A stretch of 33,954 nt of DNA from Candidatus Buchananbacteria bacterium RIFCSPHIGHO2_02_FULL_39_17 (GTDB lineage Bacteria > Patescibacteriota > Patescibacteriia > Buchananbacterales > UBA6539): assembly GCA_001817425.1 (NCBI GenBank), contig MHII01000023.1, positions 8,776-42,729 of the forward strand. Reading direction: 5' to 3'. Shown here piece after piece: positions 22,530-25,440 of this stretch; positions within the stretch are counted from its first letter, which is position 1, and every line of letters begins with the position of its first letter. Position numbers and translations under genes: made by a program. Under the pieces are notes generated by a model, which saw only the letters and a program-made list of their open reading frames with translations, made no database searches and was not told where the DNA came from.

Positions 22530-22952
22530 ATGACTATAAAATTTATTCAATTACAAACTATTTATATATCGTTGGTTATTCTTTTAAGTTGGATTTTTGG
22601 TTTTACCAAAGACGATTACAACTTCGGTCATTTTTATTTTTTACTCTGGTATTATTCTTTTCTCATGCTGGTAGTTTTTGCGCCCCTAATTTTTCTTTAT
22701 TATGCCAGTAAATCTGACAAGATTGTCGTAGGGAAAATTTTTAGAGGTTTCGTTTGGTTTTCTATTTTAGTATTTTTAGTCATTGCCGGATTGGATTTTT
22801 ACCTAACAACATTAGAATCATTTAATCTAACTGTTTTAAGAGAGTTTGGAGTAATAAATTTTCTAACAATGCTTGCGCCGTATTTGGTCTATCTAACTTT
22901 AATTATTTTAATGTTTGCCGTAATTAGGGTAAACAGGAAATATGAAAAATAG
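22530..22952 (+). CDS. Four-helix membrane protein, 140 aa
   Basis: The ATG at 22530 (MTIKFIQLQTIY) is preferred over an in-frame upstream start at 22482 that overlaps the previous gene. About four hydrophobic helices are visible (near 8-25, 36-60, 75-92, 110-135) with a short basic C-terminus (RVNRKYEK). No family recognised. It overlaps the recombinase gene by 11 bases, so the two are probably translationally coupled; cotransport with the element is likely. Confidence 0.7.
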   Translation: MTIKFIQLQTIYISLVILLSWIFGFTKDDYNFGHFYFLLWYYSFLMLVVFAPLIFLYYASKSDKIVVGKIFRGFVWFSILVFLVIAGLDFYLTTLESFNLTVLREFGVINFLTMLAPYLVYLTLIILMFAVIRVNRKYEK

Positions 22953-24558
22953 CTCGGATAAAATTAAATATTTTATCTACGCCCGGAAGTCAACCGAGTC
23001 AGAAGACCGGCAGGTTTTGTCTATCAGCTCACAAATTGACGATTCTAAAAAAGTTGCCGATAAATTTAATCTTAAAGTTGCCAAAGTATTTTCTGAATCA
23101 AAGTCTGCCAAACAGCCGGGCCGGGAAGTATTTAATGAGATTATAGAAAGAATAAAAAGCGGCGAGGTTCAAGGCATAATCTGTTGGAAGTTAGATCGTC
23201 TGGCCAGAAACCCCGTAGATGGCGGTCAGATATCATGGCTTTTACAGAATGGCATTATTAAGCATATAAAGACGCCAGAGCACGATTATTATCCCGAAGA
23301 CAACGTTATACTCATGAATGTTGAGTTTGGCATGGCTAATCAGTTTATTATAGATCTCAAAACAAATACCAAAAGGGGTCTGATGGCAAAGGTTAATCAA
23401 GGTTGGAATCCTTGTGTTGCTAAGCCGGGTTATATGGGCGACAAATTTAGTTTGAAAGGAGAGAAAAAGATTCTAAAAGACCCAGAGAGGTTTGATTTAT
23501 TAAAAAAAACATTTGAGCTACTACTGACTGGTTTATATTCTCCTCCACAGGTATTAGATAAACTTAATAACGAATGGGGTTATCGCACGCCGGTTAAAAA
23601 GAGGAGAGGTGGCAAACTAATGAGTCAAAGTTCATTTTATAGAATATTAGCTGACCCTTTTAATTATGGCCGGTTTGAGTATCCAGTTGGTAGTGGTGAT
23701 TGGCATGACGGCAAACACGAAAAAATGATAACAGAATCAGAATACTGGCAAATTCAGGAACTATTAGGCCGTAAGGGAAAAGCACGGCCCCAGAAGCATG
23801 TGTTTGCTTTTACCGGAATGATTAGGTGCGGGGAGTGCGGATCAATGATTACTGCAGAAGAAAAATTTAAAACCAACAAAGGCAATGGCCATGTTCGTCA
23901 TTACACTTATTATCGCTGCACTAAAAGAGTTAAAACTGCCCAAAAGTGCAGTCAGAAACCGATTGAGGTTAAAGATTTAGAATTACAGATAATCAACCAG
24001 CTAATAAAGATTAAAATGCCGGAAAACTTTAAGGATATAGCGCTTGAATATCTTGATAAAATAAATGACACAGAAACCGAAGACCGCCAGAAGATTTACG
24101 AAAACCAACAAAGAACTTGTGACAGTCTTGAAAAGCAGTTGGATAATTTGTTAAATATGAAGATAAAAGATCAGATCAATGATGAACAATACAAACAGAA
24201 GAAAATTGAATTAACCGGCCAGCTGAATAAAATTAGGGAAGCAATCCGGGGGACAGAACACCGGGCAGACAACTGGCGCGAGCTGGCCAAAAAGACTTTT
24301 GATTTTGCCTGTAATGCCACCTATAAGTTTGAACACGGCGATTTAGAGACCAAAAAGGCCATCTTGGCGACAATAGGTTCGGACCTCACCCTAAAAGACA
24401 AAAAACTCACTATTCAACTCAAAAAACATTTCTCTATCGTTGAGGACGGCTTAGTTGCGATTCTCAAGTATAGCCGTTGGTTAGAACCTGCCAGTAATAG
24501 CTCTATTAACGCACAAACCGGCACTTTCATGCCGGCTTATGCGCAAAGGGGTGGCTAG
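22942..24558 (+). CDS. Large serine recombinase (integrase of the island)
   Basis: 538 residues. The N-terminal resolvase domain (about 8-150) has the nucleophile S17 in YARKSTE and the catalytic Arg motif WKLDRLAR near 90. The Recombinase domain spans about 165-260. A zinc ribbon follows with IRCGECGSM near 294 and YYRCTKR...CSQKP, then a coiled coil (about 375-440). Such enzymes integrate or excise DNA at short attachment sites. The final residues (QTGTFMPAYAQRGG) are encoded next to and inside tRNA-His: the TAG stop (24556-24558) lies within the 3' end of that convergent tRNA gene. This is consistent with integration there. It is coupled to the preceding membrane-protein gene. Confidence 0.95.
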   Translation: MKNSSDKIKYFIYARKSTESEDRQVLSISSQIDDSKKVADKFNLKVAKVFSESKSAKQPGREVFNEIIERIKSGEVQGIICWKLDRLARNPVDGGQISWLLQNGIIKHIKTPEHDYYPEDNVILMNVEFGMANQFIIDLKTNTKRGLMAKVNQGWNPCVAKPGYMGDKFSLKGEKKILKDPERFDLLKKTFELLLTGLYSPPQVLDKLNNEWGYRTPVKKRRGGKLMSQSSFYRILADPFNYGRFEYPVGSGDWHDGKHEKMITESEYWQIQELLGRKGKARPQKHVFAFTGMIRCGECGSMITAEEKFKTNKGNGHVRHYTYYRCTKRVKTAQKCSQKPIEVKDLELQIINQLIKIKMPENFKDIALEYLDKINDTETEDRQKIYENQQRTCDSLEKQLDNLLNMKIKDQINDEQYKQKKIELTGQLNKIREAIRGTEHRADNWRELAKKTFDFACNATYKFEHGDLETKKAILATIGSDLTLKDKKLTIQLKKHFSIVEDGLVAILKYSRWLEPASNSSINAQTGTFMPAYAQRGG

Positions 24559-24621
24559 AGGGAATCGAACCCTCACCAACGGGACCACAACCCGCTGTTC
24601 TACCACTAAACTATAGCCACC
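24550..24621 (-). tRNA. tRNA-His (GTG)
   Basis: On the minus strand GTGGCTA pairs with TAGCCAC; the extra G(-1) at 24621 faces C73 at 24550, a hallmark of tRNA-His. The anticodon loop TTGTGGT sits on a GCGGG/CCCGT stem, and the T arm is GAGGG-TTCGATT-CCCTC. CCA is not encoded. The last bases of the 3' side overlap the end of the serine recombinase gene. A perfect GGTCGCC-TTC-GGCGACC hairpin (about 24626-24642) lies just upstream of the tRNA. Confidence 0.95.
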
Positions 24622-24864
24622 ATGAGGTCGCCTTCGGCGACCTAAAATAAAAATTTAAAAATCAAATCTCAAAATTTTTGTATCCGCCCCTGGCGGCTTC
24701 TATAATTTTTATTTTTTAGATTTAATTTTTTATTTTGAGCGAAGCGAATCGCGCCTAGCAGGATTTGTCCCGACATAAAGTCGGGATTCCGACTTTCTTA
24801 TTTTTTAAAAAATATAGTGCGTCGGGAAACCTGCATCTTAGGCTCCGTTCTGCCATCTTTTACG
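24622..24864. repeat. Palindrome-rich spacer between tRNA-His and tRNA-Arg(CCG)
   Basis: Contains GGTCGCC/GGCGACC (about 24626-24642), CCGCC-CCT-GGCGG (about 24684-24696), TCCCGAC-ATAAA-GTCGGGA (about 24768-24786) and two facing AT-rich tracts. The last palindrome resembles CCCGAC-TTAAC-GTCGGG inside the split tRNA at 25406-25422. No gene is supported; the longest frame (24765-24983) only runs through repeats and the tRNA. Confidence 0.6.
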
Positions 24865-24938: not shown

Positions 24939-25003
24939 CCAATTTTTACGAAATATATAAATTTGTTAATAGTTAATGGTTAATTGTTAAAAGTTGATTT
25001 AGT

Positions 25004-25435
25004 ACCCCCGGATGGAATCCCCGCCAAAGGCGGGTCCGCTTTTTATAATTTAATAATATGGCGAAGAACCACCATTAAAGGCTCCCCCGCCCGCATCGCT
25101 AACGCGAAGCATTGGCGGGCGCGGTAGAAGTTCCTTATTCCCCGCCTGCCATTGCCAATACCCCCGGGTGGAATCGAACCACCATCAAAGGCTTAGAAGT
25201 CCCTTATTCTATCCATTGAACTACGGGGGCGCTGGCAATGGCGGGTGGATTAGCCCCGCACCAAGCCAATAACTTAATTTCTAATTCTATATTTGTAAGC
25301 CGGAGGCGTTTTTGTGCCCACTAAACAATAATTTAGTTTTAAGTTTTTCGCGGGCTTTAGTGCGGTGGTATCCATTTGTCCCGGTCGCCGTAGGCGACCG
25401 AGGATCCCGACTTAACGTCGGGAAACTACGGGGGC
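25004..25435 (-). pseudogene. tRNA-Arg (TCT) copy split into five pieces by four palindromic insertions
   Basis: Five blocks in the right order rebuild a full tRNA nearly identical to the intact tRNA-Arg(TCT) at 25159-25230. They are 25004-25020 (3' acceptor and T arm), 25066-25083, 25125-25140, 25369-25376 and 25422-25435 (5' acceptor). The insertions are 25021-25065 (45 bp, in the T loop between positions 56 and 57), 25084-25124 (41 bp, anticodon loop between 37 and 38), 25141-25368 (228 bp, D arm at 21/22, containing the intact tRNA) and about 25377-25421 (45 bp, at 13/14). Each insert is largely self-complementary (CCCGCC/GGCGGG, CGCCCGC/GCGGGCG, CGGTCGCC/GGCGACCG). The reconstructed anticodon stem has extra mismatches, so a dead gene is more likely than a spliced one. 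Confidence 0.8.
25159..25230 (-). tRNA. tRNA-Arg (TCT)
   Basis: On the minus strand GCCCCCG pairs with CGGGGGT (G1-U72 at the end), discriminator A. The anticodon loop is CTTCTAA with anticodon TCT; the stem AGGGA/GCCTT has a G-U and an A-G at position 31/39. The T arm GGTGG-TTCGATT-CCACC is perfect. At 72 bases it is slightly short. It sits inside an inverted repeat (CCCGCC...ATTGCCA, 25141-25157, with TGGCAATGGCGGG, 25233-25245) that is itself inserted in a second tRNA-Arg copy. Confidence 0.88.
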
Positions 25436-25440
25436 GTAAT

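Follow-up and report, generated by a model that had tools for sequence, protein, structure and literature searches.

This locus raises the question of why a tRNA-Arg(TCT) gene should lie in pieces around an intact tRNA gene with the same anticodon. The locus occupies the minus strand at 25003-25436 of the window, by which we mean the whole stretch of DNA analyzed, 33,954 nucleotides from Candidatus Buchananbacteria bacterium RIFCSPHIGHO2_02_FULL_39_17 (GCA_001817425.1, contig MHII01000023.1); this source genome is referred to as G000, the broken outer tRNA as the host, and the intact nested tRNA as the cargo. The original prediction that five collinear blocks rebuild a tRNA nearly identical to the intact tRNA-Arg(TCT) was borne out by alignment, with 69 of 73 positions identical to 25159-25230 and a collinear chain score of 48, far above the maximum of 22.5 among 1000 shuffles. 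The same chain scored 13 and 15.5 with the other two tRNAs of the window. In the order of the tRNA, the locus reads as follows.

25424..25436, minus strand: host block 1, acceptor 5' strand to D stem, 13/13 identical to the intact tRNA
25378..25423, minus strand: insert at 12/13, a double hairpin TCCCGACGTTAAGTCGGGA + CGGTCGCC...GGCGACCG without a tRNA
25369..25377, minus strand: host block 2, D loop AATGGATA, 8/9 identical
25249..25368, minus strand: outer part of the insert at 21/22, a palindromic repeat CCACCGCACTAAAGCCC...GGCTTGGTGCGGGG without a tRNA
25231..25248, minus strand: left palindromic arm of the cassette, CCACCCGCCATTGCCAGC as read on this strand, inverted repeat I3
25159..25230, minus strand: cargo, intact tRNA-Arg(TCT) (ARAGORN; Rfam RF00005, 61.7 bits)
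25141..25158, minus strand: right palindromic arm of the cassette, TTGGCAATGGCAGGCGGG as read on this strand, inverted repeat I3
25125..25140, minus strand: host block 3, D stem 3' strand to anticodon loop position 37, 15/16 identical
25084..25124, minus strand: insert at 37/38, a palindrome CCGCGCCCGCCAATGC...GCGATGCGGGCGGG without a tRNA
25066..25083, minus strand: host block 4, anticodon stem 3' strand to T loop, 17/18 identical
25020..25065, minus strand: insert at 56/57 (T loop), a hairpin CCCGCCTTTGGCGGG with an AT-rich linker
25003..25019, minus strand: host block 5, T stem 3' strand and acceptor 3' strand, 16/17 identical

Three of the four insert sites originally given (21/22, 37/38 and 56/57) stand, and the fourth, given as 13/14, becomes 12/13 in standard numbering, with an ambiguity of one base. 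The intact tRNA had been placed in the third insertion, which is correct when counted from the left on the plus strand; in tRNA order it lies in the second, at 21/22. That first reading also passed over the second palindromic repeat in the 21/22 insert, the arms that directly bracket the intact tRNA, and its status as a cargo. These 17-18-nt inverted arms directly adjoin the acceptor stem; the core of the left arm is common to many genomes, and the right arm terminates in GGCAGGCGGG, the right end of the F1 family described below. The remaining inserts have relatives as well. A stretch of 40 nt from the 12/13 insert recurs at 98% identity inside a dead tRNA-Thr, in its T loop (C10:5210-5249), with additional copies on other contigs of G000, and the outer palindromic repeat of the 21/22 insert has a 75% match at C13:7498-7615 of the same genome. 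A like insert occupies the same 37/38 site in a locus from a different family (L198), and inserts built like that at 56/57 are found in the T loops of broken tRNAs in G006, a genome of the same family (L006, contig C6).

The reconstructed host carries one more anticodon-stem mismatch than the intact copy, as had been claimed; having lost this stem pair, the interrupted copy is very probably dead. The uninterrupted locus expected in related genomes was found in G006, where tRNA-Arg(TCT) has an adjacent XerD (G006:C6 is presumed, from its identical length, to be the contig of the XerD at L043).

Three observations were made nearby or in this relative. At 24750-24850 on the minus strand of the window, the 3' part of a broken tRNA-Arg(CCG), with a T-loop palindrome TTTGTCCCGAC...GTCGGGA, adjoins an intact tRNA-Arg(CCG), and in G006 (L006) two T-loop double-hairpin inserts in broken tRNA 3' parts lie near an intact Arg(CCG). 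At 22942-24558 on the plus strand, the 3' end of an open reading frame for a large serine recombinase overlaps the 3' end of tRNA-His (24548-24620), and the region upstream of this overlap looks like an integrated element using tRNA-His.

The window is not the only such locus in its genome, and a look at its other tRNAs, as had been proposed, turned up further nested cases. On contig C10, an intact tRNA-Thr(TGT) framed by CCCCGCACCATTTGCCA/TGGCAAATGGTGCGGGG lies inside the anticodon loop of a broken tRNA-Thr, and among the tRNA loci read there are nests of Thr(CGT), Leu(CAA), Leu(CAG), Val(CAC), Pro(CGG), Pro(GGG), Ala(GGC), Ala(TGC) and Gly(GCC), the last with cargo and host near-identical up to the insertion point. 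When the rejoined flanks were aligned without bias to a tRNA library, Val(CAC) scored 42, Thr(TGT) 46.5, Thr(CGT) 40.5, Leu(CAA) 36 and Pro(CGG) 37.5, against a shuffled maximum of 17.5; the Pro(GGG), Leu(CAG), both Ala and the Gly nests were read by eye. At 1330-1800 of L121 (contig C21), Thr(CGT) is apparently doubly nested, an intact tRNA lying in a broken Thr that itself lies between the remnants of a third tRNA.

To follow the arms across genomes, F1 was defined by the outer-arm pattern CCTGCCCGCC-N84-114-GGCAGGCGGG, with the reversed pattern as a control. The pattern occurred in 46 of 381 genomes of the class and in 9 of 211 genomes of a phylum sample, including seven from other classes, and the reversed control had no match in either set; because the searches demanded exact arms, these frequencies are lower bounds biased toward young copies. 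An earlier inner-arm pattern had already recovered tRNAs of many types. The 72 distinct F1 elements include 58 that enclose a tRNA called by ARAGORN, with 22 different anticodons, and a masked tRNA-Ile inside the element at L284 brings the tRNA-bearing share to 59/72. The F1 cassettes are 104-123 bp long and contain the tRNA only, with no integrase gene in any of them. The flanks of all 58 are tRNA halves, although for a few with low scores this was judged by eye only, and none of the 58 cassettes lies outside a tRNA gene. Chance, misassembly and ordinary pseudogene decay are excluded by the recurrence of nested loci in dozens of assemblies made independently, among them contigs of 0.74-0.86 Mb, and the collinearity far above shuffles and zero control matches argue in the same direction; the window mismatches would be compatible with a pseudogene, and we nevertheless give this whole group of explanations a negligible probability.

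Host and cargo agree in identity. The rejoined hosts scored above 24 against the tRNA library in 51 of 58 cases, with a maximum of 17.5 in 60 shuffles and 3 of 150 random genomic places above 24, these possibly being tRNA loci themselves; a null of mismatched flanks was unsuitable, as such flanks are tRNA halves anyway, and the genomic and shuffled nulls were used instead. For 50 of the 51 well-scoring hosts the best library tRNA was of the cargo isotype; in the remaining one (L261), ARAGORN reads both host and cargo as Val(GAC). After excision of the cassette, ARAGORN still recognized 25 of the 58 hosts, and the anticodons of host and cargo were the same in 22 of these, the three others being one host with an eight-base loop and two damaged ones. 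Chance agreement at the observed anticodon frequencies would be 8%, giving a P of about 2e-21 with cases treated as independent, which they are not fully.

One explanation for this match is homologous recombination of loci that were already nested, in which transformed DNA would recombine through the host halves. It would account both for the anticodon identity and for the repeated use of one site per tRNA, as in the Thr(CGT) nests at 21-24 in several families. The homology available is just 20-55 nt per side, however, one cassette lineage is found at different sites, and the many combinations of tRNA and site would still require independent origins, and we consider this explanation quite unlikely. 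Related Thr(GGT) cassettes, arms and tRNA together, lie in hosts of different families, in the D arm at L250, L258 and L283 and in the anticodon loop at L277. A Pro(CGG) nest is shared, at roughly the same position, by two species of one genus (G120 and G142), showing that nests can be inherited.

Two further Arg(TCT) loci were recorded. The nest at G049:C1:274000 (L014/L252) shows a partial tandem duplication of the cargo 3' half and right arm, apparently from recombination between cargo and host. Each end of a 6582-bp contig (L199, G007:C33) bears the same tRNA-Arg(TCT) between palindromes, with copies on two other contigs; the contig is either a circular element or a repeat-bounded contig.

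Three parts of the tRNA receive F1 cassettes: the D arm (21/22 or 23/24), the anticodon loop (34-38) and the T loop. The preceding base is A in 42 of 58 cases and the following one G in 37 of 58. Palindromic elements thus do enter tRNA genes repeatedly, as had been proposed, and mainly in these three places; the proposal that all inserts lie at loops is true as a tendency and not as a rule, the 23/24 D-arm sites being inside a stem. No target-site duplication was found at F1 cassettes, and recognized hosts rejoin without duplicated or lost bases. Nor is there an attL/attR direct repeat of the kind left by partial tRNA duplication, since the whole tRNA is nested and both host halves are single. 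The arms are reversed relative to the tRNA in 7 of 58 cassettes, all seven in the anticodon loop, and the cargo has the orientation of its host in every F1 case, as would be expected if it needs the host's promoter. Several excised hosts lack one half, and many dead hosts, the window host among them, hold extra tRNA-free palindromes.

The comparison of host with cargo bears on where the cargo came from. Identity between host and cargo is 71-96% in sixteen clean pairs, with differences at 1-10 stem pairs, in most of them at 6-10 compensated ones, and no broken pair on either side. As all stems are paired on both sides despite these differences, the cargo is in most cases a distinct, apparently functional tRNA and not a fresh copy of the host; copying of the host followed by its decay would predict broken host pairs, of which the clean pairs show none. 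Compared with the native gene in three genomes of the same family, the Thr(CGT) host of G148 is 93% identical and its cargo 79%, and one of the three (G200) has an uninterrupted Thr(CGT) whose downstream DNA is collinear with G148. Host fragments in family f9 are likewise native-like, at 89-94% vs 65-79% for the cargo. Counting against the cassette reading, relatives of G165 and G226 are closer to the cargo than to the decayed host. The near-identity of host and cargo in the window (69/73) fits local copying or gene conversion equally with insertion of a foreign cassette, so that either such copying or conversion must also occur, or the window cassette came from a close relative.

Complete pairing in the 16 clean hosts is also what would be seen if the inserts were removable, the host tRNA being spliced or rejoined so that host and nested tRNA both function, as the original prediction had offered as an alternative. 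Sites mostly in loops or at loop boundaries fit this as well, as does the predicted fold of the whole window RNA, in which the host acceptor stem closes around the nested cloverleaf (z -7.4). Hosts, however, range from perfect to badly decayed, with 33 of 58 not recognized as tRNAs after excision and several minus a half; the window host has lost its anticodon-stem pair, the sites vary, an intact copy is nearly always inside, and the patchy distribution fits recent insertions into hosts that are still fresh. We know of no bacterial enzymes for such tRNA splicing, and removable inserts appear very unlikely.

The same arms also exist without a tRNA. G000 contains 24 copies of CCTGCCCGCC (reversed control 0) and about 13 tRNA-free F1 elements with the ends CCTGCCCGCCAATGCC.../...GGCAGGCGGG, the same as those of the Leu(CAA) and Leu(CAG) cassettes, so that a tRNA cassette is an F1 element in which a tRNA gene takes the place of the interior. 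The tRNA-free elements are roughly 100 bp long, with an AT-rich interior and AT-rich flanks in which no tRNA halves are visible. A decayed tRNA was considered as the source of this interior and rejected, similarity not exceeding that of shuffles except in the masked case at L284, and no short-loop F1 palindrome lacking cargo (gap 0-30) was found in the 381 genomes. An unrelated arm pair, F2 (CCCCGCACC/GGTGCGGGG), likewise has both forms: G038 holds 21 copies without a tRNA, and copies that carry one were found in other genomes. Most of the 14 tRNA-bearing F2 copies examined adjoin halves of the same tRNA, 2 of 14 having no clear host; the host match is less clean than for F1, which also counts against the cassette reading. 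At G111:C11:17710 (L372), the anticodon loop of a tRNA-Gln(TTG)-like gene is interrupted by a tRNA-free F2 element. Without a tRNA, both F1 (in G000) and F2 (in G038) form dispersed copies with shared terminal inverted repeats, as in a MITE-like family.

Among the 72 distinct F1 elements, only 2 of the 13 without a tRNA lie inside a tRNA, compared with all of the tRNA-bearing ones (Fisher P 2.6e-11), and this confinement of the cassettes is odd for a freely moving element. It is what would be expected of capture in place, in which a tRNA-free MITE enters a tRNA gene and a same-anticodon tRNA from a sister chromosome, a paralogue or transformed DNA is then recombined into its center, the cassette itself never being mobile. 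The existence of tRNA-free F1 MITEs with the same ends, the variable orientation of cargo relative to arms (7/58 reversed), and the near-identity of host and cargo in the window and up to the insertion point in the G000 Gly(GCC) nest all agree with such a course. It would, however, require two rare events per case, and neither the 6-10 compensated stem-pair differences in most clean pairs nor the related Thr(GGT) cassettes at different sites in hosts of different families fit it well. We regard capture in place as unlikely.

The reading that we favor, with moderate confidence, is that palindrome-armed tRNA cassettes replace same-anticodon tRNA genes, whose dead shells then gather more palindromes. 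In the window, a native tRNA-Arg(TCT) would have been invaded in the D arm at 21/22, without a recognizable target duplication, by a short palindrome-armed cassette that carried a complete tRNA of the same anticodon and presumably moved as one unit. The insertion would inactivate the host, and the cassette's own tRNA, presumably functional and expressed from the host promoter, would take over, being released by cleavage from a transcript whose start remains at the host's position. At 12/13, 37/38 and 56/57, the dead shell would later have gained its further palindromic repeats. Across Patescibacteria, the same arms would constitute both a tRNA-free MITE-like family and cassettes that occur only in same-anticodon tRNA genes. 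It counts against this reading that no transposase or integrase linked to the arms was found, the candidate compared being the only Y1_Tnp gene of G000. This Y1_Tnp/REP transposase was rejected as the driver, as it has its own inverted repeats with unrelated ends; the gene (G000:C23:88549, L214) is framed by GGTGTCAGGAACC inverted repeats and forms its own REP-type unit.

The anticodon match itself could come from homology-guided insertion or from the survival of rescued cells only. Survival alone would explain the match for essential tRNAs but does not explain why F1 cassettes with a tRNA are found only in tRNA genes while tRNA-free copies are common outside them; this restriction would be explained by guidance through the cargo sequence or by capture of the tRNA in place. 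As a tentative extension, which we hold to be possible though doubtful, the cassette's own tRNA, as DNA or RNA, may guide it to the native gene with the same anticodon, so that insertion would at once destroy and replace that gene and make the element unlosable.

If the favored reading is true, it describes how a minimal mobile element can make itself indispensable and how foreign tRNA genes could directly supplant native ones where a genome has about one gene per anticodon. It would also account for the broken tRNA debris in Patescibacteria, call for caution in tRNA annotation pipelines, and make the recognition of tRNA genes as targets directly testable. Within the limited literature covered, we found no prior description of tRNA genes nested in same-anticodon tRNA genes, and an element that carries a whole same-anticodon tRNA into a tRNA gene is, judged on this limited library, apparently new.

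Its parts nevertheless resemble several known systems. Like MITEs, REP sequences and the Rickettsia palindromic elements, the tRNA-free F1 and F2 elements have short GC-rich palindromic ends and are dispersed and non-coding, but we know of none of these with a tRNA cargo or with insertion in same-anticodon tRNA genes. The original comparison with the Rickettsia elements accordingly missed the main point, that the insert carries a complete tRNA with the anticodon of the gene it breaks. The repetitive and double hairpin elements of mitochondria are potentially mobile and intergenic and are also found in the structured RNA gene rnl (PMC2800124); single and double hairpins, also within a structured RNA gene, are shared with our elements, whereas the mitochondrial ones are without a tRNA cargo and belong to organelle genomes. 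The transposed tRNA introns of Thermoproteales, as summarized in PMC10714607, are mobile inserts that move between archaeal tRNAs; they resemble the present inserts in being mobile inserts in tRNA genes and differ in being spliced, in leaving the host tRNA functional and in having no nested tRNA. The genomic islands, ICEs and prophages in tRNA genes restore their target by means of an integrase and a partial tRNA copy (Islander, PMC4383910; PMC9897764). Here too the target is a tRNA, often at the anticodon or T loop, and a working tRNA is restored while a fragment is left behind. Those islands, however, supply a tRNA fragment and encode an integrase, whereas here a gene-free element of ~105 bp carries a whole tRNA and displaces both host halves without a direct repeat.
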